Of a DNA stretch of 64,000 nucleotides, positions 1,701 through 31,177 are shown in pieces (position 1 is the first letter of the stretch; every line of letters begins with the position of its first letter). The notes under the pieces are model-generated. The model had not been told where the DNA came from. It did no database searches and saw only the letters and a program-made list of their open reading frames with translations. Location: NCBI GenBank assembly GCA_022385755.1, contig MU278350.1:696905-760904 (forward strand). The letters are read 5' to 3'. This DNA comes from Trametopsis cervina (lineage: Eukaryota > Basidiomycota > Agaricomycetes > Polyporales > Irpicaceae). The translations under genes and the position numbers were made by a program.

Positions 1701-1731
1701 TAATTGACCTAAGCATGTTTACATCACGCCA

Positions 1732-4829: not shown

Positions 4830-6970
4830 TCAAACACGCGCGACCTCTTTCCCTTTATCGAGTCTTGCCTTCTTTGCCTTTTTCATACCTGCGCGATCCT
4901 TGGACCCTGCTCTCTTCCGTTTAACAGATAACCCAGGTGTGGGTGTGCGTTCAGCCATAGAATCGAGCGCATTCGGACGGGTAGGGCTGGGGGATACCAT
5001 TTCAACGGCGACCGTGTTGCTTCCACCGACAGACACGGACTGATTGTTGGTCGTGGTATCGTCCGACAGCTGAGTCTCGGTCACTAGTAACAGTCCGGAC
5101 GTACGGTTATACCTGTTATATCAAAGTGAATTGCTGTTGCTACGGGGTATGCTACTTTCTCACCTGATGGTACAAGACTCGTGTCCTTGTCCTTGCATCT
5201 GAACCTCCATCGACACCGTTGCTCCGAATGTGTCCTTCATTTCCTTCACGAAATTGATGACTCGGCTCGTGACGTTGGGTATATCCTGTCTAGTCTGATA
5301 TGAGTACAAGTCATGTATAGATCGTCAATCATCTCCATTATTCACCTGTCGTGTGTGTTAGACGTCGGTGCGGTGTACTTCCCCAATTCGATTGACTGAG
5401 CCGCATGTCCGCTAACAACTGGGTCGGATGTGGCGATAGATTTGGGTTTATTGCTTTCGGTTACCGTGTTGCGAGCAACGACGACGTCAGATACGGAATA
5501 CGTGCGTCCTTTAGCCGGCGAGCTTGTTGTTCCTCTCCTGTCGGATCGGCCTCGATTACCGAACCAGGTGATGACCCGCTGATGATAGTTCTTTTTAGAC
5601 GTACGTTTTGGCATTATGTTACCACTCACCGACTTGAGGTCACCGGGCAAAGACATATTTAACTGTGACGCACGGACCCTCAGCTCGTCCAAGCTTTTGT
5701 CGACGATGATTGTCTTGCTTCGGGCTGGAGATGTACGATATGCCTCGTACTTCGATTCGACTATCTCGCGCAATTCCGGGACCCATCGCATCCTGTTGAT
5801 ATCTGCGTTTGTGTTGTCCTCTAACTCAGTCTCGGTAGACGATGTATCATCTGTATGTGTAGTAAGAATTAACATTCGTCGGACAGGCGGCTTGCATACC
5901 GTCGTCTTTGTTTTCGACACGTCCGACGTCATTTACCTGTACGTCGACTACGGCTTCGACGTTATCTGATAGCATGTCAGAAATCAGTGAGGTAGCGGCT
6001 GTGTTCTGCTTACCTTTATTGACCTCCAATCCACTGCTATGGGTTCGCCTGTCGTTACGAACGCGGTCGTCCCTCCGGTTCTCGTCTTTGTCGACCGTGG
6101 TGTCTTTGTCCTCGTCGTTTTCGTCACTGGTCTCGGTCTCGTCTTCGCTCTCGCTCTCATCGTCGCTGTCGCTATTGGTCTTGTAATCGCTGTCGCTATC
6201 GTCTTCACTGTCTATGCCGTCGTCGTCCTTGATGTTGTCAACGAGGCTATCGTCATTGGTCTTCGTCTTGACGCCACTGGCTTTGCCGTCGTCGCTGTCA
6301 CTGTCGGTGAATTTGGCGCTATCGCTGTCACTGTCACCGCTGTCGTCGCCCTCGCCATCACCAGTCACGGTTTTATGTTTGCTGTATATGTCGTCGACAT
6401 CCACGGAGGAGCGGTGGTTAGAATAGGGTGTGATCGATGCATATAATTTAATACACACGTTTCCTTTACATGGTCGCGCTTCCCGTCCTCTTTGTCGGAT
6501 GTCTGATCGTCGACGTCTCTTGCCACAGGTTCGTTTGACGCTTCAGAGTCCGAGTCGTTCGTCTCTGGATTCTCTTTGCCGCCATCTGTTTTCCGATCTG
6601 CCAATCGTAATTCAACTCATTCAGTCTGCTCGACTCCTTATCTCCACACATCCTACTCACCTGTGGTCGCCTTCAGGGTCGTCTTAGGGCCGTCCTTATC
6701 TCCCAGAACATCTCGTCCCCCGTTGTTCACTTCCTGTGCGTCCGAGGTAGCATTAGATGCAGTTGCTGTGGTGGTATTGGGTTCCTGGTCGGCCTGTTTA
6801 CGTGATTTCTTGTCTTTCGAGACGTTCTCGTCGATAGTCGGCTGAGCACTGCGGATTCTGGTTGACCTGCGTCATTTCTTGTGAGAAGCAAGTCGTTCGG
6901 TGTTTACAGGGGACTGGCTCGGAACCGGATCGCGTTGTTTTGACTGTTTAGTATTAACGGGCGATGACAT
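4830..6970 (-). CDS. Multi-exon gene for an acidic/basic, probably nuclear, protein
   Basis: I read this as one minus-strand gene with several short introns. The proposed ATG is at 6970, and the first exon ends at a cct|gtaaac donor. Good donors occur later (for example gtgagtagg near 6660). The central exon (about 6460-5940) is a run of D, S, E and T residues (SDSDS, DEDKDTT). A C-terminal folded-looking part follows (MRWVPELREIVESKYEAY near 5780-5730). A short exon around 5300-5170 encodes a helix like V-T-S-R-V-I-N-F-V-K-E-M with V-S-M-E-V after it. The last exon (5084-4830) ends in a lysine/arginine stretch (KRKRAGSKDR, KKAKKARLDK) that looks like a nuclear localisation signal. No enzyme motif is visible. 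It resembles Agaricomycete hypothetical proteins as I remember them. Exon borders are approximate. Confidence 0.55.
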
Positions 6971-7351
6971 GACAATGGGAGTAGTCTGTGAACGAGTGGA
7001 TGGTCAGAGTGAGGTGTACAGACGGGACAGAACAAGGAGTGTCGCTTACCGTAGGGAGCTCGCCTCACGTTTTGAGAACGCCGTGTCTCACAATTACATA
7101 AATGTGAAGTCATGTGACCGTGTCTGTGTGCGTGCATATCTTATCAGTACGGTTCTAAGGTGGAAACCTTTCGCGTTTAGTTTGTCCGTATCGTATATTT
7201 GAGTCCGATTTCTCTGTGTCGTATTCACCGTATGTTGGTTACTCACCGGTTACTTTATTATATTTGCCTTCGCCTAATACTGGTATTGAACGGATGACAT
7301 TGCAAAAGATTGGATTTATGACATGTTAGTACAAATACGACTAAATACGGT
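6971..7351. other. Intergenic region between two minus-strand island genes
   Basis: About 380 bases lie upstream of the acidic-protein gene and downstream of the 407-aa gene. Short ORFs on both strands are not supported by splice signals or composition. No repeat or terminator is evident. It presumably holds the promoter of the acidic-protein gene. Confidence 0.4.
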
Positions 7352-8575
7352 CTACAAAAGGCTTGCTGCCAGTCGATTCATGTGGTCCCGGAACGTAGTC
7401 GGCAGGTTTTTACCTCTACGTAGTTCGCTACGCCACTGTTGTCTGGTCAGTGGCTTGCTTACATTGTTGCGAATGCCATCTAGTCGACGTTGAAACCAGT
7501 TCTCGTTCTCACGAGTCCAATATCCCATGTTCACTCCGCATACCGCCCATACATCGGCTGGCGGCCACCATGAGACGAATGATCCTTGCTTGTCTGATTG
7601 CGCTACACAATTGATATCGTTATCGTTTGGTACACCTATGACATTGGAACGAAATAGCTTACGTGTAAGAATACGATATAGTCCTACAATCACGTCTAGC
7701 TCCTGAGGTGTGAGTTCATCTTCAATGTACGTTGTTCCCTCAATCTCGCATTCTTGGACTACGCGATTCGGTTCTGGGCCCATGTATATACTCTGTATAT
7801 TTGCGATCTCGTGTGCCAGACGTCGTACAATACCTCCTTTGAGTAAGGTAGCGTGGCCTCGTTCGCTTCTGATAAACTCATCCCGTTCCTGTTCGTATGC
7901 CTTGTAATCATTTGCTCCTAACGTCGTACCTGCAGGTTTGATACCGATTCCAATTGGACGTCCATCCAGCAATTTGTTTTGTGGTAACAGACTAGCTTCC
8001 GTGCGCCAGTCAACCGGAATATTGGACCCTGTGCCCGGTTGACATGGTCTTAAGATTCGGATTGCGATTTCCCTGTCTATCAAGCTCAACGCCAGCCTCT
8101 CCTTCGATTGACCGAATCCACCCCGTATGGCATGCGTTACACTAGTTGCGTCTTGTACCATCACTGTCCAACCACCTCGTTCTGGTAGGCGGGTGGAGCC
8201 TAAGTGCGTAACCATATACCAGGTCGTCGTTGGCGTATGTATGTGTCGAACCCGTAATTTGGTGCGGCCTGGTTTTGATGATAGTAGAATATCATGGCGG
8301 ATATCGGATATGAGACTGTGAGGAGAATGTCCACTCAGAACATAAGCCACAAAGTCCGCAGCGGCACTGAGTTCTGATCCTGAAAGACGATCTTCATCGT
8401 CTCGCGCCACAAGAATACGGTACAACTCGCTTTGACTACCCTCGTTGACCCAACGGTCTGCGTCCTCGTGAATTATGACCCACTCTTCGTCGGGCGGAGG
8501 CGCCACGAAGCCGTACCTGTTCGCGAGAACCAGTGATAATCGTTCGGTCGTTGTAGATCCAGTCGTAGTCGACAT
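7352..8575 (-). CDS. Uncharacterised 407-aa protein with a C-terminal SWWP...GYW motif
   Basis: A single uninterrupted reading frame starts with a Ser/Thr run (MSTTTGSTTTERL). The middle is mixed alpha/beta with no signal peptide or membrane segment. The C-terminal third carries conserved-looking features: SWWPPADVW, then GVNMGYWTRENENWF, then an Arg-rich helical tail (QQWRSELRRGK). From memory, similar 'SWWP ... G.N.GYW ... WF..R...IR' endings recur in hypothetical proteins of Agaricomycetes; this needs a search. It lies 113 bp downstream of the 528-aa gene on the same strand, suggesting a co-inherited pair. It has no catalytic motif that I can name. Confidence 0.7.
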   Translation of the reverse strand: MSTTTGSTTTERLSLVLANRYGFVAPPPDEEWVIIHEDADRWVNEGSQSELYRILVARDDEDRLSGSELSAAADFVAYVLSGHSPHSLISDIRHDILLSSKPGRTKLRVRHIHTPTTTWYMVTHLGSTRLPERGGWTVMVQDATSVTHAIRGGFGQSKERLALSLIDREIAIRILRPCQPGTGSNIPVDWRTEASLLPQNKLLDGRPIGIGIKPAGTTLGANDYKAYEQERDEFIRSERGHATLLKGGIVRRLAHEIANIQSIYMGPEPNRVVQECEIEGTTYIEDELTPQELDVIVGLYRILTRKLFRSNVIGVPNDNDINCVAQSDKQGSFVSWWPPADVWAVCGVNMGYWTRENENWFQRRLDGIRNNVSKPLTRQQWRSELRRGKNLPTTFRDHMNRLAASLL

Positions 8576-8688
8576 TGATCCTGCTGTGATGATCGTGGTG
8601 ACTTGTTCGGCGAGGTCTACGTTTTGGTCGTCCGCGGTGGTTGGATTGGCTGTAGTGAATGTTAGACAACATAAGGAATACGTTCACT

Positions 8689-10393
8689 TCACATACATAT
8701 TATTGCCTGCTGTGCGTGGGCGGGGACGTCGTTATTCAAGATATGATCTGATACGCTGTCCTGGTTAGAGTGAACGTTATAGTACGTGTCCAGTTCTGTA
8801 TCGGGTCCCTTCATCGGTGTGTCAGTATATTCTTGTAGTTGGGGGTTGGGGCCGTCTCTGTTGACGTCCTCGTCGTCTGACCAATCTCGTAGATCATACT
8901 CGTCTCGGAACGGATTGTATCTTCGTTCTTCTTGCGAGGTTCTCATCCATTTCGATTTCACGAAACGGTCCTCGAGTAGCCTACGCAACTCTATGCCTTG
9001 TTGTCTGTACCATACGAATACACGAGGGCAACCATTCACGGGCTGGGGCTGGGATGCATTGATCGCTTGCCGTCTTATCCTATACGACGATGCCTCTGCG
9101 GACTCGTCTTGTAGTAGTTTTTGTTGATTGACGGTGTCGCGTCGCACAAATTCAGCATATGTTTCTCCCGGTAATTGTCGAGCTCCGCATAACATGTTTG
9201 CCTTCCAGCAAGCCTCATGACTGGGTTCATGACAAGTTGTTGGAGTCAACGAGGAAGTGCCATAGTTGATTTTGTATTTGTGGGTCCTGCCTTCTCTCAC
9301 GCGCAATAGAACGTGAGGGCTGGTCTTCGATATCCGGCTGTCGATGTACATGTAACTGTACCCCCAAGTCAACGGTACATTCTCGCTCCGACGTTCGGCC
9401 TCTTCGTTGCAGGCTATTGTAATTGCCTGTAGTGTAATGCCTGATATAGTAGACCCAGGGCAGAAGTAATTCCATAATGACGACGTTGCAATCGAACTTC
9501 GCATTATATCAGAACCACGAAAGGCGAACCATAATGGTACGCAACTTCCTAACCGTAGAATATTTATAATTTCATCGTACCAATTGGTACTGAGCCCTTC
9601 GTTATCGGCCGCGTCTTTTTCCATATCAACGGCTGCACCTACGCGCCGCACAGACCAATCGCACACCCAGGATGTCCGAAACGCATGACATATCGCTTGA
9701 GGAAGTACGCCTTGCATCATGAACGCTGTCATTAGGTCGTGCTTCCCTTTGCATTCGGCTCGCATCACCAAGTACGAGAGGTACGCGAATCGCAACGTGA
9801 ACGCTGCTCGTGCCATTTCGGCAGCTCTCCTAGCTCGTCTTCGACCGGTGTGCAATTTTGTGTACCCATAAGAAGACGGTGGAGGCGATACGACAGTGTC
9901 AAGGTATTGTATGGGCACTTCTCTCAGAAGTAGGGTTTGTACTTGGCCCATTATGTGCTCGAGGGCTATCCATTGCTTCTGCACGTCTGCGTCAAGTCCG
10001 TACATAGTATTTGATGTGCTGGATTTCACCACTTCGATCGTTACGTGCGCCGGGGATAAGCAACCCAGTATCGCTCCGTGATACTCGACTTGCGCTGGAA
10101 CGAACGCGAGATAGAAATAGTCGTCGTATGCATACCTGGCACGAAGTCCGTCGAACGGGGTATGTAGTGATTCGTTCTTATATACAAACGGCGGCAGCAC
10201 GTTCGAATTCGGTGAGACAAAAATTGTGTGATTGATCGTCCCGAATACATGTATGGCAGGACAGTGTTCGGTCAACTCTTCGTAAATGGTTTGGGTGCGC
10301 GTCCTATAATACTTTGTGAGCTGCCATCGTTTCTGTCACGTTTCGCCCTCACCTGCCTGGCGGACGGATAGTTCCGCCGTCTACTGCTTGCAT
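8689..10393 (-). CDS. Uncharacterised 528+ aa protein, RQLPGE family
   Basis: The main exon runs from 10303 to 8689. A 49-nt intron (10304-10352; gtgagg...attatag) joins it in frame to an upstream exon with an ATG at 10393, giving RPPGR|TRTQTIYEELTEH. In-frame sequence continues further upstream to about 10600, so the true start may be earlier. Features: a YAYDDYFYLAF segment, an Arg-rich patch (GRRRARRAAEMARAAF) leading into a hydrophobic helix, then GARQLPGETYAEFVRR, a PRVFVW motif and QEERRYNPFRDEYDL, and an acidic tail. The order 'R-LPGE ... F--R, PRVF-W, RRY-SF--E-D' matches my memory of a large Agaricomycete hypothetical family. The function is unknown. A single amphipathic or membrane-like segment is possible. 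Confidence 0.65.
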
Positions 10394-10812
10394 CCGTTCT
10401 GTGTGTTGGAAGAACGTACTACTGGTATGTTCGCGTGCAGGTGTTATCCCGGTGGGGGTGTCTTGAGTGGGATCACACGATAGAAACAGGGTATATGTCC
10501 GTAAACACGCAGGTGTCTGCCTAAATGGGTGTACACTGTTGTCGAGTCTTGCCCCGTCTGTAGGTTCCCAGTGTTCGTTCCAGATTCGGACAAACAACAC
10601 GGTAAAACCAGTGTCGTTTCTCGTTCTGTCTGGTGGGGCACAGTCTGTTGTTCGTCCTTGGTATTGATATCGTCTGTAGAATGTGAGTGTTTAGTATATG
10701 TATCGGATTGCGTGTCATACGTACCTTTGGTAACCCCTTGACGGTTGACGGTTTCGAATAGTTGCCTCCAGACTAGAGGCGTCGGGTACTTGCGTCTACG
10801 GACAGGTCCACC

Positions 10813-11070
10813 CTAAATTGCGATGTTGTCCGCCGAGTCGTTGGACATTGAGATACGATTGATAAATGACGCAACTATTATGTTTAGGCAATCTGCGTCA
10901 GTCCGGTCCGTCGGATCATTTGATGCATTGTTCCGATACATGATATGGACCTTCAACTCAATCGCAGCTCCTTCACTGTCACTGCACGACTTTGGTGTTA
11001 CCAAGTTGTGCAGGCAGTACCTACCGTCGTCGGATCTATGTGTATACCACATCGGGACGTATCGGACCAC
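10813..11070 (-). CDS. Possible small gene or exon, uncertain
   Basis: An 85-codon minus-strand frame starts MVRYVPMWYTHRSDD and is followed by a cysteine/serine-containing middle (PKSCSDSEGAAIELK) and a hydrophobic C-terminal helix (LNIIVASFINRI). The composition is more protein-like than that of the overlapping plus-strand frame. It lies upstream of and in the same direction as the 528-aa gene, so it could be a separate small protein or a distal 5' exon. There is no recognised domain. Confidence 0.3.
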   Translation of the reverse strand: MVRYVPMWYTHRSDDGRYCLHNLVTPKSCSDSEGAAIELKVHIMYRNNASNDPTDRTDADCLNIIVASFINRISMSNDSADNIAI

Positions 11071-11536
11071 TCCAGCAAGTCCACGTTTGCCAGACGGTAA
11101 GTCTTTCCATGCGTGTATCGATACGAATGCGTGTTATCATTATTTTTCTTTACAGTTCAGGTCTCACTGTCTATCGTCGCCTACCCCAATGGCCTTGTAT
11201 GCACTCCTCATGTGACGACTGGATTGAAGATGGGGTTCGAAAACCATGCGGTGAGTTCGGTTTTACTGTGGACTTGTACGGGAACCAACATTTACGATTC
11301 GACTGGTGTGCACGTACCGAATCCTAAGGGAGGATGGCGATGGAGGATCTATATATACCAACTCGTCGTATATTGTATGTCGATTTGCTTGTTGTTAATC
11401 TTATTTGTGTTATACTTACTTAAACTCAATCTGGGTTACGACCGCACCCCGCAATCTATTCAGACCTAATCGCCCAAACAGACTCTGTCCGCAGAACATC
11501 GGACTTATCTACGTTGGTCTGACCAATTCCGATTAT

Positions 11537-11580
11537 GACTATGCATAGTCGAAGCGCTGTTGATACAGCGCTTCGACTAT
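11537..11580. repeat. Perfect hairpin with overlapping palindrome
   Basis: At 11545-11560 atagtcgaagcgctgt is followed by the loop tgat and at 11565-11580 by its exact reverse complement, giving a 16-bp perfect stem. Immediately overlapping is the 14-bp palindrome gactatgcatagtc (11537-11550), so 'gactat' or its complement occurs three times in 44 bp. It lies in the middle of the divergent intergenic region. Candidate roles are a replication or nicking site, a bidirectional regulatory element, or the end of an unseen element. Its core cgaagcgc recurs in the palindromes of repeat R. Confidence 0.9.
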
Positions 11581-12410
11581 CCACTTTGACAATCCCAATG
11601 TGTCAATGCTGATGGCCGGTTGTTTATATAAAAGTAAGCAGATGGTTTCGCAACCAAGATGGGGTCATTGGTGTGTGTATTTCGTCGACGTATGTCATGT
11701 TGGTGTTCGGTTCCATAACGCTTTACACGAGGTGAAAATACTCACCCTGATATGTCGCATGTTACCACCCCGATCTTGTGGGTGTATGTTGACCATTGTC
11801 ATACGTTCTCGGCCGCTTTATAAACTTCATATTCTGGTGGTTCTTGTAGATTGCCTACCGTAGTTTATTAAAAATGTTGAACCGCTGGAGCTCAAATTAC
11901 ATTATGATTATCCTCGGTTAGTTCGCGGACTGTATGTACTAATCGTATGATTTGGTCCGTACCTTCCCAGTGGTCGGTTGGGGTAGTGGTTCTATGTACG
12001 AGGCCCAATCTGTACAAGTAGCAGTCATCCAAAATTAATATTCGGTTCTAGTTATACTGCTTTCTGATCCTGGGTAGGGTCTGACGTCTTACATTTCGGC
12101 GCCTGCACCTTGCTGCAACCGGCAATTTCCCTTATTTAGGTTGATGGCCAGGGTTCGGTTTGCATCCAAGTCTTGTCCTTCACACCCCCCTGTTTTCGGT
12201 TCTGTCGCTGCTCAATCCAACGTCTTTGGGCGATTCACAAGACGACTTTGGTTTTACCAAGTTGTTTGGATCGGTCGGATTGTTGGCTTTTCGCGGCTAA
12301 AAGAAGGGACGGCCGAATACTTGGGGCTGGAACTTACGACGTACGTGTTGTTGACCTGTCGTTGTGGTATGCATTGCGACATGATACTGACCAACCGTTT
12401 CAATTTTAGT

Positions 12411-15400
12411 ATGTCGTTGCCGCGTGCTTATCCTGTGCACCTTATGCCAGGCAGTCCGGTACTGACAGACCTTCGCCCGCTGGACATCCCGGGTCGGGAT
12501 CCTGTACTTCCTCCTCTGTACGAATACACTGGTGCGACGCATCGAGAACACCGGTTGAAGCTACCTGGAGGCAAGACTTATATATATATTGTGGACTCGT
12601 CTACCCTCGGCAAAGTTGCCTTTGAGAATATTACGAACAGTCGTTCAGTACCCAGCGGTTTCACTCATGGTACGTTTATGATGATCTGTCGGTCATACAT
12701 AACATGTATATGTATATGTATATGTACATGTATGTGTCATTGTCTTACTTGTGGCTATGTGTTTGCAGATATCATTGGTGAACTGGAGTTGGTGCCGGGC
12801 GACGCTTTACTGGCGCATCCTCATAACGCCAACGGTTCGGTTTATGCAGACGTCTTACAAATATTGTATGGGATCGAGTGAGTATACCACCCGTATTGGA
12901 CTACGTGTAATTAATCTTATACACAACAGTTTTGAAGGGATGCCGCCAGGGACCTTTGCCATGTTCGCTCACTTGGCTCGCGGATATACATTGTCTCAGA
13001 TCCATGATATGATAAGGGACGTCGATGCCGCCAAGGCAAGACTATTGGGAAGTAGAGAAGATCGCGAACGGTATGGTCGTACGGCATTCGAACGTTCCGG
13101 TCGTGCAGAACCAGTTGGAGGATCCCAACGTTGCTATGGAACGACTCATATGGTGCAAAAACCTCGTCAGGTAGCGAGTCCTCCTGCGGCCTTGAAAATG
13201 ACATCTCATACTCCTGATGAAGGTCAAGAGATGGTTCGTCAGGCTGTACAGGTAGGGTCGATTAGTTTAAACCAGTTTATTCATTCTAACCTAATTATAC
13301 AGGCCTGCTCGAAGTTTAACTCAGTCGCATGGGCGATGCAGTGCCCTGCTCACCTTGCAGAGGCATTGCACGCATATTCCGAACAGACTAATTCCCCTTC
13401 GATCGGCTGCAGTGAAAACTTTACGTGGAAGTCAATGCAGCTGAATCATGCAATGACGCAGGATGTTGCAAACGGTCAGTCTCAATTTTACAACGATGTA
13501 CCTGTGGTCTTATATTTTTTTCAATTTAATTACAGAACAGTCCATGATGGCAGAGATGGGTCAATTCGGAGGCGAACACATAGACGAAAAGGACGCTTGC
13601 ATTTCGCACTCATGCGCGCTGGGTTTGTCTGACCTTGGCGAGCATGAGCAAAATGAACCAGGTCGTTTACATTTCCTTGGACAAGGAGTCTTTGTACGAC
13701 TACGCCCTCATTGTCAAGTATTCTTTAGCGGATTACTCAGGCATGGAGGTACTACACCTCTGGTGTCCGATCCGTCCCAAATCAAGAAATGGGCTACGCG
13801 CATGTTACTCATCAGTTACCCACCTTCCAGCATGGTACTGGGTGAAGCCCGTCACTCGTTGGCTTCCTTACCATATCAAGAACAACCTATACATCTCACC
13901 CCGGAAATGACAGGGGCTCCGCATATACCGCGTGAAGGACGATCATTGTGGACAAACCATACCACCGCTGCACAGGACAGCTGGACCGTTACCGACGAAG
14001 AGTCGCACTTCGAGTTCATGGTCCGATCGATGTTCATGCAAAATCAATGGGTCTTCCGTCAACTACCTGAGTACTACAAGTGTGAGATCACCTTTGAGAA
14101 ATTCCGGCAGTCATTCTCAATGATGCGAGACAACGCAAGGGTTACCGCTTTGCCCTGGAGCCTTGCGCCGAATCCAAATGTTCGAGAGCCATTCGGAGAG
14201 AAACATCGAGAGGTGCAACGCCGGCTATTGAGCACCGAGTACAATCGGTATATGCAAGGTATACCATTCATCAAGAGTAACAAGTACGATACATGGGATA
14301 TTACTGCTATGGAATACAACAATTCTGCAGGTATGTATTGCCACGGATACCGTATTCGACCATTCATCTTATGATACGTGCAGATCGCGGAAAATCCACA
14401 GGTAACTCGAAGAAACGAGCTGCTCCTGACCAAGTTGAAGGCCTGTCCGTTAGACCCAAGCGTTCGTTGTTGTATTCATCTGCGTCTGATGAAACTAATA
14501 TGTATACAGGTGCAAAGGTACAACATACTATGGCAAAGGCGCATGTCAATGAAGTCGTCATGTCCAATTTCCCTGCAGCCACTCAGTCGCTCAACTACCT
14601 CAATCAACCTCCTGGGGTATCTGACGACACACTGTACGACGATTCGGATCTAGAGTCTGAGGTGAATATATTCTAAAGCATGTGGTTGCGTTTGTCTAAC
14701 CATCAAACAGGACTCCTTTATCCCTCATGAGACACGTACACTCGTCTCGAAGGGAAAACAACCTGCCCGTCCAGCCGCATCGTCATCTAATTCTAACAAC
14801 TTGTTTGAGAATCGAGCGGTTTCCACTAGGTCAGGTCGAGAACCCGTCGCTCCGACTACCCATACATCGCATCCAAACAACATTATAGACACTGGTGGAA
14901 CTGGGGTACGTGATATTTATATTTATGGTATGCATGTTAATAGATGCGATGTTCACTGTATTACTTTTAGATTGCCGGTATGTCCACGATTGTGAATACA
15001 TTTGGGCCGATTGCATATCCTGCGGCGACGGATACATACAACTCTCACAACGCACAAGGTCAGTCTCCTTGTCGGTTATATAGACGACAGATGGACTTAT
15101 CACATTGGCTTTGGATAGCAAGAATTTTCTTCAGTAAATTCAGTCCAGACGTAGTCAACGCAATCGTATCCGAAGTGGAGGTTGCTATCCTAAATTTGTC
15201 TACAACATCTGCCGAAACATTACGGAAGGCATTGCATGTACTTGACGAACTAGATAACGACGGCGTTTCCATTGAACCTACCAACATCGTGTCTCGTTTG
15301 CCGACAATATCTGATTCTCTTATCCATCTGCGTACATATTGCGTAGATGTAGATGTGTGGCGAAATTTCCATCGTCAGCGGTTGATGTTGTCCGAACATC

Positions 15401-17142: not shown

Positions 17143-17301
17143 TGTATCTATTTTTTGGTCTCTTTCTGTCGTATACGGATCATATAGTGGTATGGTAATA
17201 TTGTTATAATCCTTCACTCTGTAGACGGCGGGACATATAAGAACATTGTAAATTGGTCACATCGGATACAGTTTCACAAGTAAAGTATGATATGATACAA
17301 C

Positions 17302-18655: not shown

Positions 18656-19189
18656 ACTCCAGAATGAACGTCGCTCACATCGTACAAAGTCAGCTGAGTG
18701 TTCCTCGTACCTTAATCTTTGATGTCTTGTGGATCAATAATTACCGGGAGAACATCGGACTGTTTCGTGAACAGCTGACATTGCACACGAGCCGTGATCC
18801 ACGCATTTTTTTACAGGGATATAGTCACGACCGTGCGCATGACGGACATGTAAGCTCTGTTCGGAGGGTTGTAAGTCACCGAATGAAGAGATAACAGTTA
18901 TGCGTCTGACAAACGTCAAGTCTTGGCTAATTAAGCCGTACGGACCATTAGATGCGGCGAGATAGCAATCATATATCAAGGAACAAGGGCAAAGTGTATC
19001 AACATCTAGTCTCGCACGTTGCATAGCTTGGGTCGGTGTGTGATATCTACCACATGCTCAACATAATCCACTGATAAGGATTTCGGAACGGACCTCATTG
19101 CACAGGGTCCACTCTTGCTTAAATACTTTCAGTGTGTCGAATCCAAACACGTCGTCATTTCTGAATCCTCCCATCTACGAACTTACTAC

Positions 19190-22100: not shown

Positions 22101-22823
22101 GCAACTCGTGGATGGTGAGATGTTGCCAGGCGGTGGTAATATGTGGATGAAGAGCATGGCCATTGCGCCTATCACCATCGAATGGGCTCGCTTTTGTGCC
22201 TTCTTCACCAAACACATGAACCTTTCACCCATTTTTATTTCGAACTTTCACATGGGCTTTACCTTTAGCTCTCGTCCCAACCGACCCAGTTGTAAGTCTT
22301 CATCCCTTGCCTGTCCATGTCTCTGCTGATGACCCAATATTCAGTCTCTCAGAACCGACCTACTGCTGTCAACGACTGGGCTGTCAAAGTCAACTCTATG
22401 ACAGCCTGGGACGGATTGGATATGGTAGAGGAGACCTTAGTCGGTGGGCACAGTAGCAAGGTGAACGTCTTCCACGAGCAGCTTGCGGGATATATCAACA
22501 ACGGTGGAGTTCCTTTTGAAGACACTGGTATGTGTTGCCTATTACCTTGTCTGTTCTCCAGCTCACCTTTTGGTTTTCCTTTCAAAGTCCCCATATACGA
22601 CCTGAGGGAGTTATATAACCGGAATGACATCCGTCCTCTTGCTGATCTTCTGGCCACCGCCCCTCGATGGACCGAGGAGCTTCCTCCTAAGTCATTTGTA
22701 GGAGTACTTAACGTTCCTCATTTAACAAAACACGATAGAGATCCTGATAGCAAGGAAGGGAATCACGATGAATTCCGATTTGCATTGATTGGAATCATTT
22801 TACTAGCAATTCCATACAATTAG
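19190..22823 (+). CDS. Intron-rich gene: charged repetitive N-terminus plus conserved-looking C-terminal domain
   Basis: The start ATG at 19190 begins MSRESTPVNKR with a gtgagt donor at 19222. The next exons encode an RGG-like stretch (RSRGGGRGG, then KSGGKSG), then acidic runs (EEEEEEEVDEIEDE at 19.72 kb) and many small exons each ending in KK or KR before the donor. An internal repeat of about 69 nt (DSDDED-xVSSVKKGKQPA) occurs three times at 20.85-21.23 kb. From 21.55 kb the protein becomes folded-looking: RNIRPGTILPPDIIF, then a region with VDGEMLPGGGNMW, ITIEWARFCAFF and PIFISNFHMGFTF. It ends with VPIYDLRELY and TEELPPKSFVGVLN. This late pattern ('W-R----F, P-YD-R, LP--S-V-V') is one I recall from another expanded Agaricomycete family. 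A nuclear location is inferred from the basic blocks. The gene ends 157 bp before the Helitron frame. Confidence 0.65.
20850..21230 (+). repeat. In-frame tandem repeat in the charged N-terminal region
   Basis: Three imperfect copies of a ~69-nt coding unit are visible, with shared cores 'gacagcgatgatgaagac', 'gtatc(c/g)tc(t/c)gtgaag' and 'gggaaacagccggc'. Two lie in the exon at about 21062-21227, and an earlier one is at about 20860-20930 in the preceding exon. The repeats encode alternating acidic (DSDDED) and basic (KKGKQP) segments. Confidence 0.75.
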
Positions 22824-22980
22824 TTAGTAGACAATCCTGTCGTTGATTAGAACTTGTGTAACCGGTGTCCCAAAATGGGATACAACCAAATAGATGTCAA
22901 TCTGAAACTTTGTGACGTGTCATCCCAGCTTCTATACTGTTCCTTACTTTCAACGGCGAACTTGACACTTTCGTATCACG

Positions 22981-25900
22981 ATGGCATTGAATTCTATACC
23001 TTGGAAGATTAACGTCCTCCTGTTCTTGTTCTTCGTAACATGGGTTCTTCCTTGTATCGAAACTGGTCAGGCGTCTCCAATGATTAGTGAGTGTGGTTGT
23101 CGTCTTCCAGTTTTTATCAACCAGAATCTAACTTGTACAATAGACATATACTCTATCTCATCCGTATGCACTGCATCAACAGACTGTTTGTCTGTGACGT
23201 ATCCCATAGAGGTCCTTGCAAGCCCTCTTTCTAAAAGTCTTGCGCCATTAAATGGCTTGGTCCCGCCAGATACCAAAAATGAAAAATCTGTGCACTTCGT
23301 TCAATATTATGATCAACCAATATGGTTTTTTGTTATGTACCTGATACCACAACAGAATATACACAATCGAGCAAAGCGAGCACGACTTGTGGCTACTCGC
23401 AATCAATACCGTCGCACATATTTCTATTTATTGTTGCAATCTTCTGCATGTATTAACGATTTCCCAACTGATATACACTTTATGTATCGAGAGTACCCTA
23501 GCCATTGTAATCGTTGTCCTGTTGTACATGTACAATCAACTGTGTTACGTTTAGTTGGAGGTGGACAAGTGTTGGATAAGCGGAATACATGGACAGTTGA
23601 CGAATTACAGCCATACGTACCCACAACGACGAACTTAGCAAATTGTCCATATATATTATGTGCCTATACATCTATGTCAAACGATTACACAGACAACCAC
23701 TATGTAAAGGCTCATGTCCCCTTGTCGTTTCTGATAAAGAAATTGTCTATTCGAATGTTATACGAGGTGGCTCGAAATCATGGAATTGCAATCAGTAAAG
23801 GACGAAATTCAAAGGATGGAATTATAACAAAGATGACAGCACATACATGTATATCATGTTCTAAGTACATCTGTGTATTTCAACCGCGACTGTCTCCTGT
23901 GAGGGCTCATGAAAATACACGCACTGCATTGGAAGTAGAAAGTAAATTACAAAGGGGACGAGATGCATGTAAGAAGTGGCGTAAGAAGAGACAATTCCCA
24001 CCAAAACCAGCATCAGTTTCGCATGTGCATAATATAATTCAAGGATTTACTAAAGATTCCGCCTTTGAACAGATAAATGAAACTGGATGTGCAGTCTGTG
24101 GGTGTTTGGTTCTATGCTCAGAACTACAAGACATACAATCCTTGAATGTGGATGTTAAACTGTTGTATAATCCCAATGTAACCCGTAAAGAAAGATTATC
24201 TTATTTGGATCCAATAGAAACACTTACAGGTCCGGTTCTGACAGCAGACGGAAAGCAGTGTTGTCTTTCTTGTCATAAAGCATTAAAGCGCGGAGTAATG
24301 CCCAAAAATGCTTTAGCTAATGGGCTATGGATTGGAGATACACCGAATGAACTCCAAGGGCTATCATGGATGGAGCAGAAATTAATTGCACGCATTGCCA
24401 CCAATTATTGTGTAGTACGTGTACATTCTTCTGGTCTATATAAAATGCGCACCAACGTAGTCTGTCGGGCAACTCCTATGAAGAAGATATACAATGTATT
24501 ACCTCCTAAACGTACTGACTTTGAAGAGGTGCTTGCTATCTTATTCATTGGACCTGCTCCTCCTACACCAGTAGAATTTAAAAGAACACCGTTACTTGTT
24601 CGACGAGATAAAGTGTGGGATGCTCTTCAGTGGTTACGATTGAATCATACAGACTACATCGATATAGAACTATCACAAGACAATTTAAATGAGTATTCAG
24701 AAGATGAACCTCCAGTTATTGTGGACTATCATCCTACGTCAAATGAATCTGATTCAGAATCTACAGCTGTAAACAATCATACCAATGAAGATGCTACTGA
24801 TAATGGACAGAGTTCCTTTGTTGTTCATGGCTTAACCGGGGACCAACTGTCAGATATGTGGAAAGATGATCCTCAGAGCATTCGTCTAAAGGCAATGAAA
24901 TATTTTGCACAAGGGGGGAAATCATTAGGCATAGGGAAAGCAGACCAGCCAGAGAGTTTATGGAACAATCCTCAACTGTATCCGTCTATGTTTCCTTGGT
25001 TGTTTCCGTATGGTTATGGGGGGTTGGGAAATGATCGCATACAGATACCTATTCAAGATGGAGTCCGTAAGAAAAACATGTTAATGTATCATGATAAACG
25101 CTTTCAACATGATCAATATTTCTCTCTCATTGCTTTCAATCATGAGCAAATCAAGAACAGTGCAACAGGAGGATATTTCCTTACTCGTAAACAGAATTTT
25201 AAGGACGTAGCTGAGCGACTGTCCAACATTCAGAGTAGCACTTTAGATAATTTAATTCATCGCTTACAAGAAGGACCGGTTACTCCTGAGACAGATGCTG
25301 AGAAGGCTTGCTTTAGATTACTTGGAGACATAGATTATGTGGGAACTCATGTAGATGGATCCGTAACAAACAGAAGACGTATGCGTAATGAGATATGGTC
25401 TCTAACTTCGTATTTAGGTGCGCCCAGTTGGTTCATAACATTTGCTCCAGCTGACGTTAACCACCCGATTGCATTGTATTATGCTGGAGACAAACAGACA
25501 TGCTATCCACAGATTCCAAACAAAGATGACAGAGTTCGACTGATTGCTAATAATCCTGTTGCAGGCGCTCGATTCTTTAATTTCATAGCTGATACCTTTA
25601 TAAAGCATGTGTTAGGATATGGAAACAAGAAGCGCGATGGATACTATGGGAAGACTGCAGGATATTACGGAACAGTTGAACAGCAAGGTCGTCTAACATT
25701 ACATATGCATATGATGGTATGGATTAAGCATAGTATATCGCCTCAACAGATACGTGACGAGATCATGAACTCAGATTCTGATTTTCAAAGACGTATTGTT
25801 CAATATCTTGAAGCAGCTCATGTTGGTGAATTTAAACATGGGACTATTACAGAAGTACAAGATAAACAGTTGCATAAATTAGCAACAGATCCAACGTATG

Positions 25901-28900
25901 TTCCTCCCACATTAAAATTACCAGAGCCTCCCGTAGAATATTGCAACATAGTCTGTAAACAATGTGATGAGTGTACACTTGCTGACCATTGGTGGATGAA
26001 TTTTGAAGAGACTGTTGACGAAATTGCAGTCTTGTCAAATATACATATATGTCATCCTGGATGTACTAATAAATCTCATCCAACCTGTAAATCACGATTC
26101 CCTCGGGATGTATTTCCTCAAACGCTAGTTGATCCAGAAACAGGCTGTCTGTCATTGAAGAAAGGAGAAGCTTGGGTCAATTGTTTTACACCTGTGGTTA
26201 CGTATTTACTTCGGTGTAACACAGATGTTACAAGTTTATTATCTGGAACGGCCATTAAAGCTGTCATTGCGTATGTTACGGATTATATTACTAAGTCTCC
26301 TCTGAAGACACATGTTATATTTGATGCTGTGAAGACAGTGTTTGCAAGACAAGCCGATGTACCTGTAGAAGATCAGGACCGATTGAAAGGTGCTCGGTCT
26401 ATCATCACCAAGGTGGTTAACATGTTAACAGCTCAAAGTGAAATTGGATCCCCTATGGCTTCAATGTATTTATTAAAACATCCAGACCATTATACAGACC
26501 ATCTATTTAGACGGTTCTACTGGAAAGGATATATTAATGAAGTCCGTCAAGTTTGGAGAACTCAAGAACAGAATCTATCAAATGAGACCCATCAAGTTGA
26601 CACAAATAATGAAGATTCCCATGTAACTCTTGGAAAGAACATACGTGGTATTGTAGGATTTTCACCTTTGGCTGATTACATGTACAGACCAGATAAATAC
26701 GGGGATGTCTCTTTGTATGATTGGGTACGGCTGTCTCACAAGGTTAAAAACAAATCACCTGCTAAAGACAAGCGTAAATCTGCTTCTGCTGACGAGTGGC
26801 CAATTGATAGCATTATAACACATAAATGGATAAGAAATAATGATAAACAACAAGGCAGAGTATTATTTCACGTTCAATGGGAAGAAGGAGATACAACTTG
26901 GGAGAAATTAAGTACGCTTACTCAATGTAGGGCCTTGGATGATTATTTTGAGCAAATGAAGGTTACGCATTGGAAATCCTTACCAGACAATACATCTTCA
27001 TCTCAATCAAAGGATGAACCAGTTGAAATAAATGAAGATGATTCAGATAGTGACACAATTAGTGTAACTTCAGAAGAATCTGAAGGAGAAAATATTGACA
27101 CAGAATCCAATGAATCCGAATCTAGTGATAGCGAAGAAGAAGCTGTTGAGGATAACATACATGGACCTGATGATTCTGATACTGTCAACAAGAAGAAAGC
27201 TGATCCCTATTATTTGTTATCTACCTTTAAAGAAGACCACCCTCAATGTGAAACACATAGAGTACGAATGAAAAAAGAAGAAAATGCTTTAGTTCCAGAT
27301 TTTGTAGGTGGAATACTTCCTAGACGAGATAAAGGGAATAGAGAAGATTATTGTATGACTATGTTTACTTTATTTCAACCGTGGAGAACTGGCTTGGAAT
27401 TAAAAGACACAACTGCAACTTGGAGTGAGACGTTTGACAGTTATAAATTCACAAGTCGTCAGACAGATATCATGAACCATTTTAATCTACGCTACGAATG
27501 TAACGATGCCAGAGATGATTATGCAGCTCAAAGAAAGAGTAAAAACACCACAAATGAGACTTGGCCGTTTGAATTAGATGACACCACTTTAGACAGACTT
27601 GAGGAGGATTATGATAATATGTTAGACTTGGACTCTCACAAAATAGATGAAGATGAACTGTTTGAACCAAATATTGAAGACAGATCCAGTAGACTGCATG
27701 TTGAGCGTATGATGGCAGCAGAAGACATGTTAGGCCGTAACGGTTTATTAGACACACAGACAAATACGTTTATAGATGTTTCTGAATTGCCGTCTGTTAC
27801 GGACATGGAGAAAACAGGCCACTATTGGCAGTCCTTACTGGATCAGAAAAAGGACCAGCTTAAACAAGCAAGACGTGGCCAGGCAAGTCAAGCTAAGGCA
27901 AAGAAACTTGAAAAGGAGCGTCAGAACTCTACCATTGATAAAGTAGAGGTAATAGATCAGTCTTACTTTGAAAAGACGTTCAAAGCAGTAAATAAAGAGG
28001 ATAGGACATTTATTGATGACATTGTTGCCAAATTTACCTTGAATGAAGAACAGGCTAGAGCGTTCAAACTTGTGGCTAACCATGCTACTTTGGATAAACC
28101 ACCACAATTGAAGATGTACTTGGGAGGAATGGCCGGAACAGGAAAGTCACAAGTTATCAAAGCATTGATGGAGTTCTTTGAGAAAAGAGATGAAACTTAC
28201 CGCTTCACATGCATGGCTCCTACTGGATCTGCTGCTTCTCTCATTGGTGGATCTACATATCATTCTATGTTGGGTATTAATCCCTATCGAGAGAAAATGG
28301 ACAAACTAGCTGCTTTATCAGATGTCAAAGCCAATCTACAGAATGTAGACTATGTGTTTATGGATGAAGTCTCAATGATAGATTGCCTCAATCTCTACAA
28401 CATATGTCGACAGATGTGCAAGTCTTTAGATAATGAAGCTGATCCATTTGGTGGTAAAAACATGATTTTTGCCGGTGACTTTGCCCAACTACCACCTGTG
28501 TCAAGTGGACGTGCTCTATATTCACATACAATAGACTCTGTAATACATACAGACCAGTCTCACATACAACAAGAAGCATCTCTTGGAAAGGCTGTCTGGC
28601 ATCAGTTTACAACTGTAGTTATTCTTCGTCAAAATATGAGACAAAGGTCACAGACAGAGGGAGATGCTAAATTCAGAACGGTACTAGAAAATCTGCGGTA
28701 CAAATCATGTACTAGAGAAGATGTAGAACTTCTAAAAACCAGAATACCGGGGCCTGCAAGTCATAAACCAAAATGGACAGATGACAGATTCCGGAATGTA
28801 TCTGCTATTACTTCATTTAATGCTAGTAGGGATAAGCTAAATGAACGAGGTGCTGAACGGTTTGCTAAGGAGACAAAACAGAGCCTTGTCTATTTCTATT

Positions 28901-30855
28901 CAGTAGACAGACACAAGACATTGGACAACGATCAAAAAATGTCTAGACAAGTACGTAAAAGAAAAATAGACCCTACAAGAAATACAGACAGACTTGGTTC
29001 AAGGGCACAATTTCATTTCTGGAACTTACCGCCAAGTTCAACCAACAACCACCCAGGAAAAATTGGAATATGTAAAGGCATGCCGGTCATGATCAAGAAA
29101 AACAAGGCTACAGAATGTGGAGTCACAAATGGAGCAGAAGGAGTTGTGGTTGGATGGAAATCACGTCCAATAGACAAAGAACATAGTACCCTTGAAATCC
29201 TATTTGTCAAATTGACGTCACCATCTGTGAATATTAAATTAGAAGGACTTGAAGAGAATGTTGTACCAGTTGCTAGTGAGTCTATCAATATTACCTGCCG
29301 GTTACCTAATGGAAAACAGCAGACTATTAACCGTACACAAGTTCCAGCTGTTATCAACTTTGCAATGACAGACTACGCTTCACAAGGACGTACTAGAAAA
29401 TACAACGTAGTAGACATACACAACTGTAGAAGTCATCAGTCTATATATACGTGTCTGTCAAGGGGTTCATCATTAGATGGCACTTTAATCACCCAGGACT
29501 TCCAAGACAAACACATGACCGGTGGACTTTCAGGGTATCTTCGTCAAGAATTCAGAGAACTAGAAATCCTTGATGAAATCACCAAATTGAAGTTTGACCG
29601 CAAGCTACCAGCTGGAGTTGGTGGAATGACAAGAAATCACTTAATATCTTCTTACAGAAAACAGAAAGGCAGTACATATGTTCCAAAAACCATGCCTTTA
29701 TCTTTGAAATGGTCAGAAAATGATGACTACAAACTTCAAGATCCTTTTGACGCTGCAGACTGGCAGATATTAGATAAAAGCAAGAAGAAGAAATCTGATA
29801 AGGAAGACAAGTCAGAACAAAAGCCTGTAGTAAGAAAACCTAAAGTAGACGTTAGAAACTTTGTTCCTGCTCAAGGTACAGTCAAATTGGATGTTGTAAG
29901 CCATGAACAAGTGGACAAGTTCAAAAAGAAACGTAAACATAATGATCCTCAAGGAGCAAGTAAGGTAGAATCAACTAAAAAACCAAGACAAACAGTAAAT
30001 GCTGTCATTGAAACCAGAAAAAGTCCTAAAGGTTTTATATGGGATGAAAATACATACAGCTGTGCATTTGATAGTTTGTTCACAATTCTAGTGAATATAA
30101 TGACTAATCCAGTGAATGATTGGACAGCCTTGACAGAAAATGGAAGTACCTACCTAAATCTGTTTACTGAATCCTTTGAAGGAGTTGATTTGAACTCAGA
30201 AAGTATGGAATATGCTAGAGATACCATGCAAGAACAGTTGGCTATGGACTTTCCACAAGTATTTCCATTAGACCGGTCAGGTATTGATGTTCATGAACTT
30301 TGTGAACGCATACTCACAGCTGAAAAGGGAAATATTCTCAAGAACTTGTATTGTAACCGGTGTAAGCATGAAATAAATTCCAAAGTCCACAGAAACCAAT
30401 TAGCTTGGAGATGTTCAAAGGTAGCATGGACAAATAAAGCAGCAAGGGCTGGATCTATAAATGGTCAGACAACATCTAGCTGGATGAAAGCTATGTTAAG
30501 AACCAAATCCAAAACCAAATGTGGTACATGCCGTCAAAATGGTGACACTGTATATCAATTCCAAGAACCCCCACCATTTATTATACTGTATATTGATGAT
30601 ACAATCCCAGTTCATATCCAAAATGTCATGCATGCAAATGGGTTTGAATACAAGCTTCAGGGGATGATTTATTTTGGAAGTTTCCATTTCACTGCACGTA
30701 TTGTGGATGAAAAAGGAGATGTGTGGTATCATGATGGGGTACAGACAGGTAGAGATTGTAATTTTGAGGGAAACATGAATGACATAGATGTCAACTCATT
30801 ACTTCAAGCGAAAAATGGCCGGAAATGCTCTACGGTTCTATATACCCTGATTTAA
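22981..30855 (+). CDS. Helitron Rep/helicase with chromodomain-like and C-terminal protease-like regions
   Basis: A 2,624-codon frame with no stop is the catalytic protein of a Helitron rolling-circle transposon. The N-terminal third has Cys pairs (C-x2-C at several places) and a DUF6570-like region (LSWMEQKLIARI). The Rep (Helitron_like_N) part begins near PSMFPWLFPYGYGG; its HUH pair is H908-x-H910 and its putative catalytic tyrosines are Y1098 and Y1102 (Y-V-T-D-Y). At about 1273-1330 lies a chromodomain-like segment (W1273, W1300, T-W1307-E), followed by an acidic stretch. The PIF1-type helicase has Walker A 1716-1723 (GMAGTGKS) and Walker B D1795-E1796, then FAGDFAQLPP. The C-terminus has a ubiquitin-protease-like Cys box (C2361 in SCAFDSLF), Cys pairs (CNRC, CGTC) and a His box (H2569 in FHFTAR, then WYHDG). 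The first 30 residues are hydrophobic, so the annotated start may be wrong; later ATGs are possible. All catalytic motifs are intact. Confidence 0.9.
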   Translation: MALNSIPWKINVLLFLFFVTWVLPCIETGQASPMISECGCRLPVFINQNLTCTIDIYSISSVCTASTDCLSVTYPIEVLASPLSKSLAPLNGLVPPDTKNEKSVHFVQYYDQPIWFFVMYLIPQQNIHNRAKRARLVATRNQYRRTYFYLLLQSSACINDFPTDIHFMYREYPSHCNRCPVVHVQSTVLRLVGGGQVLDKRNTWTVDELQPYVPTTTNLANCPYILCAYTSMSNDYTDNHYVKAHVPLSFLIKKLSIRMLYEVARNHGIAISKGRNSKDGIITKMTAHTCISCSKYICVFQPRLSPVRAHENTRTALEVESKLQRGRDACKKWRKKRQFPPKPASVSHVHNIIQGFTKDSAFEQINETGCAVCGCLVLCSELQDIQSLNVDVKLLYNPNVTRKERLSYLDPIETLTGPVLTADGKQCCLSCHKALKRGVMPKNALANGLWIGDTPNELQGLSWMEQKLIARIATNYCVVRVHSSGLYKMRTNVVCRATPMKKIYNVLPPKRTDFEEVLAILFIGPAPPTPVEFKRTPLLVRRDKVWDALQWLRLNHTDYIDIELSQDNLNEYSEDEPPVIVDYHPTSNESDSESTAVNNHTNEDATDNGQSSFVVHGLTGDQLSDMWKDDPQSIRLKAMKYFAQGGKSLGIGKADQPESLWNNPQLYPSMFPWLFPYGYGGLGNDRIQIPIQDGVRKKNMLMYHDKRFQHDQYFSLIAFNHEQIKNSATGGYFLTRKQNFKDVAERLSNIQSSTLDNLIHRLQEGPVTPETDAEKACFRLLGDIDYVGTHVDGSVTNRRRMRNEIWSLTSYLGAPSWFITFAPADVNHPIALYYAGDKQTCYPQIPNKDDRVRLIANNPVAGARFFNFIADTFIKHVLGYGNKKRDGYYGKTAGYYGTVEQQGRLTLHMHMMVWIKHSISPQQIRDEIMNSDSDFQRRIVQYLEAAHVGEFKHGTITEVQDKQLHKLATDPTYVPPTLKLPEPPVEYCNIVCKQCDECTLADHWWMNFEETVDEIAVLSNIHICHPGCTNKSHPTCKSRFPRDVFPQTLVDPETGCLSLKKGEAWVNCFTPVVTYLLRCNTDVTSLLSGTAIKAVIAYVTDYITKSPLKTHVIFDAVKTVFARQADVPVEDQDRLKGARSIITKVVNMLTAQSEIGSPMASMYLLKHPDHYTDHLFRRFYWKGYINEVRQVWRTQEQNLSNETHQVDTNNEDSHVTLGKNIRGIVGFSPLADYMYRPDKYGDVSLYDWVRLSHKVKNKSPAKDKRKSASADEWPIDSIITHKWIRNNDKQQGRVLFHVQWEEGDTTWEKLSTLTQCRALDDYFEQMKVTHWKSLPDNTSSSQSKDEPVEINEDDSDSDTISVTSEESEGENIDTESNESESSDSEEEAVEDNIHGPDDSDTVNKKKADPYYLLSTFKEDHPQCETHRVRMKKEENALVPDFVGGILPRRDKGNREDYCMTMFTLFQPWRTGLELKDTTATWSETFDSYKFTSRQTDIMNHFNLRYECNDARDDYAAQRKSKNTTNETWPFELDDTTLDRLEEDYDNMLDLDSHKIDEDELFEPNIEDRSSRLHVERMMAAEDMLGRNGLLDTQTNTFIDVSELPSVTDMEKTGHYWQSLLDQKKDQLKQARRGQASQAKAKKLEKERQNSTIDKVEVIDQSYFEKTFKAVNKEDRTFIDDIVAKFTLNEEQARAFKLVANHATLDKPPQLKMYLGGMAGTGKSQVIKALMEFFEKRDETYRFTCMAPTGSAASLIGGSTYHSMLGINPYREKMDKLAALSDVKANLQNVDYVFMDEVSMIDCLNLYNICRQMCKSLDNEADPFGGKNMIFAGDFAQLPPVSSGRALYSHTIDSVIHTDQSHIQQEASLGKAVWHQFTTVVILRQNMRQRSQTEGDAKFRTVLENLRYKSCTREDVELLKTRIPGPASHKPKWTDDRFRNVSAITSFNASRDKLNERGAERFAKETKQSLVYFYSVDRHKTLDNDQKMSRQVRKRKIDPTRNTDRLGSRAQFHFWNLPPSSTNNHPGKIGICKGMPVMIKKNKATECGVTNGAEGVVVGWKSRPIDKEHSTLEILFVKLTSPSVNIKLEGLEENVVPVASESINITCRLPNGKQQTINRTQVPAVINFAMTDYASQGRTRKYNVVDIHNCRSHQSIYTCLSRGSSLDGTLITQDFQDKHMTGGLSGYLRQEFRELEILDEITKLKFDRKLPAGVGGMTRNHLISSYRKQKGSTYVPKTMPLSLKWSENDDYKLQDPFDAADWQILDKSKKKKSDKEDKSEQKPVVRKPKVDVRNFVPAQGTVKLDVVSHEQVDKFKKKRKHNDPQGASKVESTKKPRQTVNAVIETRKSPKGFIWDENTYSCAFDSLFTILVNIMTNPVNDWTALTENGSTYLNLFTESFEGVDLNSESMEYARDTMQEQLAMDFPQVFPLDRSGIDVHELCERILTAEKGNILKNLYCNRCKHEINSKVHRNQLAWRCSKVAWTNKAARAGSINGQTTSSWMKAMLRTKSKTKCGTCRQNGDTVYQFQEPPPFIILYIDDTIPVHIQNVMHANGFEYKLQGMIYFGSFHFTARIVDEKGDVWYHDGVQTGRDCNFEGNMNDIDVNSLLQAKNGRKCSTVLYTLI

Positions 30856-31177
30856 TGTGGTATTACATATATGTATATACATGTATGTGTACGTGTATGT
30901 ATACATATCTGTATTAGATAGGCGTATGTATAACACAGATGTGTTATTGGATAAACATACATGTATTGTATATGTTTATGTATGTGGTAAATGTATGAAA
31001 GAAATGCTCTGGTTCAATGTTGTACGAAAAATCATGATGAAATACATACATAGAGGGAACATAATCTTGAAGCAAATACAGATGATGCCATAAATGTTCC
31101 ACAGTCATACGCACCATCGTTCGACATTGTGTGTATAATAAACTTCAAATGTGACATATTAGGGGTGCATAAAATAC
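30856..31177. other. Helitron 3' flank, AT-rich, terminus not located
   Basis: A run rich in alternating purine-pyrimidine 'catatgtata/tgtatgtg' blocks lies at 30865-30990, and a short inverted repeat aacacagatgtgtt near 30931-30944. I could not identify a convincing Helitron 3' end (a GC-rich hairpin just before CTRR), so the element boundary is open. Transition to LTR-family-B-like sequence begins near 31178. Confidence 0.4.

Follow-up and report, generated by a model that had tools for sequence, protein, structure and literature searches.

The locus analysed here raises the question of whether a run of intron-rich genes and the intact Helitron gene that follows it are accidental neighbours or parts of one mobile unit. 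It lies in the genome of Trametopsis cervina, a wood-rotting polypore of the Irpicaceae whose 29.4 Mb assembly comprises 59 contigs, designated here by C numbers, in a 64,000-nucleotide stretch of contig MU278350.1 (C3) referred to below as the window. An initial annotation of the window had proposed that six genes with no enzyme motif, between 4830 and 30855, form a co-inherited and possibly mobile module, the Helitron being either its carrier or a separate insertion. We conclude that the region is probably one autonomous giant Helitron2-type element of 27.4 kb whose conserved cargo includes g4, a gene with a predicted TET/JBP-type dioxygenase domain that may counter silencing.

Boundaries and copies of the element

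The element occupies positions 3863..31219 of the window on the plus strand (27,357 bp, its ends being ambiguous by one T); it starts to the left of the interval first proposed and extends beyond it. Its limits are defined by an empty site in contig C38 (locus L008), which was reached by a search with the right flank of the element. At this site the left host flank (3761..3862) is joined to the right host flank (31220..31535): positions 1816-1918 of L008 correspond to window 3863-3761 and positions 1501-1816 to window 31535-31220, both at 96% identity. The entire 3863-31219 interval is missing there, all cargo genes and the transposase being absent together, and this interval is one element holding both. 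A second complete copy with the same ends is present in C52 (367-27810; 27,444 bp) and two further copies, in C31 and C19, are cut by contig ends. The module is preceded by the 5′ terminus at five loci (C3, C52, C31:240289, C19:558534 and C34:218212).

The cargo genes also occur together elsewhere in the genome. g4, g5 and g6 (the last with one exon as query) are each found at the same four loci, C3, C52, C31 and C19; when loci are placed at random in a simulation, the probability of as little as one coincidence among the four is 0.027. The orientation of the module genes is conserved among loci. The empty site, the shared termini and the conserved clustering at four loci together indicate a single mobile unit that includes the Helitron as carrier, one of the two roles that the initial annotation had considered for it; of the checks that it proposed, the empty site and, within this genome, clustering beyond chance were both found. 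A subtelomeric gene cluster is without support, since no run of at least two TTAGGG/CCCTAA units was seen in the five contig-end loci checked.

Transposase and termini

The transposase (RepHel; 22981..30855, plus strand) is encoded by a single intact open frame of 2,624 residues from the ATG at 22981, 157 bp after the g6 stop codon (22823), and includes DUF6570, Helitron_like_N and PIF1 helicase regions. Pfam profiles match Helitron_like_N (E 2e-34) and PIF1 (E 5e-25). An HxH motif (in LHMHMMVW), a YxxxY motif (YVTDY) and helicase-type motifs (GMAGTGKS, DEVSM and QGRT) are present, and the protein carries the HUH nuclease and superfamily 1 (SF1)/PIF1 helicase that characterize the RepHel of the Helitron superfamily. 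On profile evidence, the 2,629-residue frame contains no Pfam domain corresponding to the additional endonuclease of Helentrons. We take a stretch around residue 1277 (26790-27000) to be chromodomain-like and the C-terminus (30030-30855) to be cysteine-peptidase-like; neither has a Pfam match. The C19 transposase continues only to approximately residue 396, where another 5′ end (580219) cuts it off, and the C31 element is inserted within the transposase frame of another Helitron copy whose protein is 96% identical to that of the window. A second Helitron family, 38-46% identical over the main pieces, is found in C32, C16, C35, C15 and C28, with frames of 2360-2383 residues at four of the five places and 1737 at C28; none of these places is among the loci with module genes.

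The 5′ terminal region (3863..4262, plus strand) begins with TTACGATTCCTGAGG, which recurs in inverted orientation at a distance of 29 bp from the 3′ end in C3 (31177..31190, plus strand; 14 bp in C3 and 15 bp in C52). Downstream lies the 3′ terminal segment (31191..31219, plus strand), for which a short hairpin is predicted; it ends in CACCCAAG and is followed by a host T. In the description of the Fusarium elements (PMC5148889), Helitron2 is defined by terminal inverted repeats of this asymmetric kind, whose 3′ arm lies 20-40 bp from the end of the element. The canonical Helitron1 ends (5′ TC, 3′ CTRR and insertion between A and T) are not seen, the ends here being TTACGATT...CACCCAAG. Insertion is precise: neither the C38 empty site of the full element nor the C19 empty site of a non-autonomous one shows a target site duplication. 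On the right the neighbouring host base is T. On the left it varies, being T beside the full element, G in C52 and C31, and A beside the non-autonomous copy at 404-2772. By their sequence, the termini are Helitron2-like.

Each end has at least 40 genomic matches (for the 5′ end, over its first ~150 bp) and many of these belong to 2-kb non-autonomous elements. One relative with the same termini lies in the window itself (404..2772, minus strand) and has an empty site in C19, at ~545.0 kb. A second of this kind, at ~46489-48548, matches it at 89% identity over 2 kb. For end pairing, three of 43 rows of 5′ matches were left out (two pieces shorter than 90 bases and one 79% match) and three ends identified in the empty-site search, two of them 5′ and one 3′, were added, giving 42 five-prime ends. 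Among the matches listed, 23 of these have a partner within 60 kb. The distance is 1.4-3.6 kb for 17 of them and 27.4 kb for two; the remaining four, at 7.3-48.1 kb, are probably mispaired by nesting.

Cargo genes and their distribution

Gene models were obtained with a codon-usage and splice-site model and none of the five (g1, g23, g4, g5 and g6) includes internal stops. They bear out the layout first described, in which minus-strand intron-bearing genes are followed by a long plus-strand, a minus-strand and a plus-strand gene, with an intact Helitron 157 bp after the last and repeats on both sides. The number of genes had to be revised. The second and third genes of the initial annotation (7352-8683 and 8689-10335) are exons of one gene, g23 (7352..10335, minus strand; at least 868 residues, start uncertain), with an intron at 8650-8696, and the cargo therefore comprises five genes and not six. 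The junction is bridged by one open frame in five of six relatives (C52, C46, C25, C31 and C19), a stop lying between the two parts in C34.

g1 (4830..6970, minus strand; 7 exons, 581 residues) encodes an acidic protein with a basic C-terminus; related sequences are present in C52, as pieces with 32-48% identity, and in C31 (35%). g4 (12411..17142, plus strand; 7 exons, 1450 residues from the likelier start at 12411) includes a predicted N-terminal dioxygenase-type domain, in exons up to 14330, and ~880 residues beyond it. g5 (17302..18476, minus strand) has 5 exons and 289 residues, and g6 (19190..22823, plus strand; 20 exons, 829 residues) combines a low-complexity charged N-part with a conserved C-terminal domain. 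Curated profiles (Pfam, NCBIfam and PHROGs) yielded nothing usable for the cargo pieces tested, the best Pfam match being no better than E 0.03, and sequence profiles from the PDB produced no credible match for g4 or g23.

g23 is found at seven loci genome-wide: C3, C52, C31, C19, C34 (cut by the contig end) and a pair in C25 and C46. The paralogous genes of this pair (C25:263218-265944 and C46:79718-82369) are 51% identical to each other, and an 8.5-kb run of N lies ~7 kb from the gene in C46. Approximately 5 kb from the C25 gene, positions 271407-271571 show a 64% match to residues 3-59 of P0010, a g4 relative from Cytidiella. This short match lies outside the dioxygenase domain and does not fit neatly with the four-locus pattern of g4.

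The initial annotation had placed at least four of its six genes in hypothetical families expanded in Agaricomycetes, a claim that the searches did not bear out. Protein searches with g4, g23 and the g4 domain retrieved relatives only in the Irpicaceae (Trametopsis, Irpex and Cytidiella) together with three metagenome proteins; since these searches require shared 5-residue words, and one of them scored the best 7,994 candidates by word count, distant relatives may be missed. In Cytidiella melzeri, relatives of g4 and g23 are located on the same 88,280-bp contig.

g4 as a predicted TET/JBP-type dioxygenase

The description of the cargo as devoid of enzyme motifs does not hold for g4. An alignment of g4 relatives reveals an HxD motif, an H 53-55 residues later and an R 19 residues beyond in all 15 proteins with the full domain. 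The same residues are intact in the g4 copies of C31 and C19; the relative P0005 is without the N-part. An AlphaFold2 model of the Cytidiella relative, built from 17 sequences, has a mean predicted local distance difference test score (pLDDT) of 65 and a predicted template modelling score (pTM) of 0.71; an earlier model (P0007; mean pLDDT 41.5) was left out of the fold search. In a Foldseek comparison with the PDB, ranks 1-21 are occupied by CcTET, CMD1 and NgTET, with CcTET at the top and a best E value of 2.2e-6. VIA-align scores are 14.6 for CMD1, 14.5 for TET2, 13.8 for NgTET1 and 13.1 for CcTET, followed by FTO at 10.0. Among viral models, the best named match is a phage JBP1/TET oxygenase. 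The predicted fold is closer to TET/JBP than to other 2-oxoglutarate (2OG) oxygenases.

No Pfam or NCBIfam model of the TET/JBP superfamily reached E 1 for g4, so that the assignment rests on the predicted fold and the conserved residues. With HxD in 15 of 15 proteins, g4 is not of the PE type, which has HxE in its place. The residues corresponding to CcTET 331 and 337, when read by plain offset, are not the Gly/Ser and Asp of the AG type in the window protein. Membership of the predicted g4 N-terminal domain in the TET/JBP-type 2OG-Fe(II) dioxygenases is strongly supported by the predicted fold and the catalytic residues.

Divergence between copies and CpG content

Between C3 and C52, the proportion of differing silent sites (pS) in the cargo is 0.74-0.85, at saturation, and that of differing amino-acid-changing sites (pN) is 0.18-0.44. 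As pN remains below pS although silent sites are saturated, the cargo proteins have been kept by selection. Along the transposase of the same two copies, third-position divergence falls from 0.5-0.6 to ~0.4, then ~0.2 and finally 0.03-0.18 at the end. In matching parts of g23 the C31 and C19 copies share 66-67% identity; this rises to 89.6% over 5.9 kb starting at the g4 end, and to 98.7% in the final 799 bases of C31. Because both pairs of copies become more alike towards 3′, exchange or homogenisation between copies has affected the 3′ part of the element more recently than the cargo on the 5′ side.

CpG content follows a parallel course. The observed/expected ratio is 1.0-1.4 in the 5′ windows of C3 and falls to 0.34, with 0.83 in the last 357 bp; in C52 it falls from 1.2-1.4 to 0.45. 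In both, depletion grows along the transposase to the 3′ end together with the similarity between copies. CpG is just as scarce in the non-autonomous copies (0.36-0.37) and in a copia-like element (0.39). The likeliest reading would be a methylation-driven decay of some repeated DNA which has spared the diverged cargo.

Alternative explanations and proposed mechanism

Could the cargo be a host gene cluster native to this site, next to which an ordinary Helitron landed in a separate event? Its genes are intron-rich, unlike usual transposon genes, and the locus is surrounded by repeats. We reject this explanation, and regard it as very improbable, on account of the C38 empty site, which lacks genes and Helitron together; the 5′ terminus ahead of the cargo at five loci also speaks against it, as does the finding of g4, g5 and g6 nowhere else at the sensitivity used, save for the one short match outside the g4 domain. 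The genes might otherwise be host genes swallowed when a Helitron end was bypassed, and merely carried along. Capture of gene pieces is known for Helitrons, as reviewed in PMC6431247; introns and a near-normal CpG content make the cargo resemble host genes, and cargo and transposase differ in divergence. However, whole genes and not fragments are present here, no free-standing host counterpart of g4, g5 or g6 was detected in the genome, and relatives exist in Irpex and Cytidiella. Much the same gene set, with pN below pS, is moreover conserved between copies old enough for silent-site saturation, which makes a mere passenger unlikely.

A further alternative concerns g4 itself, whose domain may be a TET/JBP relative with a role other than demethylation: base hypermodification, oxidation of N6-methyladenine (6mA) or non-catalytic binding. 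The top VIA match, CMD1, is a TET relative that transfers a glyceryl group; CcTET acts on 6mA too, according to the text of PMC12730594; and g4 has ~880 further residues and four companion genes. On the other hand, the top Foldseek match is CcTET, a 5-methylcytosine oxidiser, and the metal and 2OG residues are intact in all 15 proteins. We regard such other chemistry as quite possible without being probable.

Several observations weigh against the favoured explanation, an autonomous element with a TET/JBP-type gene. Only two copies are complete, those of C19 and C31 ending at contig ends; an empty site for the C52 copy was searched for and none was found, and no transposase of its own was seen for the C31 element. 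The hairpins predicted at both termini are no more stable than shuffled sequences (z -0.61, -0.09 and -0.84). g23 is present in C25 and C46 without detected g4. While the conserved orientation proposed initially is retained, conserved order is not, since g1 lies elsewhere in the block in C31 than in C3 and C52; it was not detected in C19. An extra frame lies between g6 and the transposase or contig end in C31 (258956-259754, locus L036) and C19 (577235-579036, locus L032), its DNA being 98.7% identical over 799 bases; the 157-bp gap in C3 is too small for it. Transposase and cargo were not strictly co-inherited: in the comparison of C3 with C52, divergence is lower for the transposase (synonymous divergence, dS, 0.89, with a stepwise fall along the gene) than for the cargo (pS ~0.8), and the more recent 3′ exchange points in the same direction. 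CpG is not strongly depleted in a gypsy-like piece (0.87) or in long terminal repeat (LTR)-like units (0.74 and 0.99). As to g4, the fold model is only partly confident, with low values at 360-382, 432-442 and 457-506, and the TET-family rows of the Foldseek comparison have low TM-scores (0.19-0.40). We presume the extra frame of C31 and C19 to resemble a nucleotidyltransferase-like fungal hypothetical protein.

For an autonomous Helitron2-type element, the following mechanism can be proposed. RepHel would nick at the 5′ terminus (TTACGATTCC...), an enzymatic step taken from established knowledge of Helitrons. Rolling-circle replication would traverse all five genes of the cargo, then the transposase gene, up to the 3′ end, with its inverted repeat, short hairpin and CACCCAAG. 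The copy enters in front of a T without target duplication, as comparison of ends and integration sites shows. g4 may act on the DNA of the element itself, oxidising its methylcytosine and thereby opposing silencing by the host, a likely role in which we place about even confidence; the other four cargo proteins would probably assist on DNA or chromatin. A broader reading is more speculative and, as a whole, rather unlikely: the element could be the first seen member of a giant-Helitron class whose five obligate cargo genes constitute one DNA-modification/chromatin apparatus built around a TET lineage separate from PU, AG and PE, that is, a self-encoded anti-silencing machine possibly making a hypermodified base.

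Relationship to known systems

TET-bearing fungal Helitrons are already known, as are Pleurotus Helitrons with unexplained genes. Kojima 2025 (PMC12730594) describes TET/JBP genes on many fungal transposons, including a Helitron2 of Agaricus bisporus, and proposes that they allow escape from methylation silencing. The T. cervina element resembles these in encoding a TET/JBP dioxygenase on a Helitron. It differs in its HxD motif, the A. bisporus Helitron TETs being of the PE type with HxE, and in carrying four more conserved genes and a long g4 C-terminal extension, whereas the TET transposons, as presented in that article, encode no further modification proteins such as glycosyltransferases. 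For Polyporales, the main text of the article gives only Kyakuja as TET transposons. The KDZ (Kyakuja/Zisupton) elements are likewise basidiomycete transposons with a TET/JBP gene but have another kind of transposase, target duplications and an AG-type TET (same source).

HELPO1 of Pleurotus ostreatus is also a basidiomycete Helitron with genes, in this case one to four 'captured' genes of unknown origin; as described in PMC4289320 it measures 1.5-13.7 kb (a 15-kb copy is also mentioned), inserts between A and T, has T[C/G]...CTRR ends and carries its cargo downstream of RepHel. By contrast, the T. cervina element is 27.4 kb long, has asymmetric inverted repeats and carries its cargo upstream of RepHel. 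It shares with the FoHeli/Helitron2 elements of Fusarium the asymmetric terminal inverted repeats, the 3′ repeat lying 20-40 bp from the end, and termini confirmed by pre-insertion sites, but those elements are ~5-11 kb long with no such cargo in their description (PMC5148889). A 2019 review (PMC6431247) states, in its survey of sizes and capture, that fungal Helitrons reach 14 kb and maize Helitrons 39 kb with captured sequence, and that whole-gene capture is exceptionally rare. The large maize elements are comparable in size and carry gene fragments, in contrast to the conserved set of whole genes found here.

No description of this element was found among the open PMC papers searched. As far as searched, four features are new: the size, for a fungal Helitron; a cargo of five conserved, intron-rich genes; a TET of HxD type on a Helitron from Polyporales; and a gradient from 5′ to 3′ in copy similarity, accompanied by CpG loss. 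Approximately twice the length of the named fungal Helitrons and provided with a conserved set of whole genes, the T. cervina element sets itself apart as a variant. A 27-kb fungal Helitron with five whole intron-bearing genes long kept by selection, one with a predicted DNA dioxygenase domain, makes testable the self-defence of transposons against methylation by their own enzymes, the roles of the four partner proteins, and the existence of giant cargo elements in basidiomycetes comparable to Starships. The Starship elements of the Pezizomycotina are large gene-carrying fungal mobile elements too, but use a tyrosine recombinase and another mechanism, and belong to another phylum.

Other features of the window

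The repeats around the element presumably include a Copia-like element with a run of N (36788-40727), a gypsy gag-like remnant (31489-33256) and a repeated 703-bp LTR-like unit (2873-3575 and 33425-34127). We take three further frames to be host-like: a CCCH zinc finger protein (51682-53808), a histidine-kinase-like ATPase (57425-58024) and a PAS/LOV white-collar-like protein (58392-60662).
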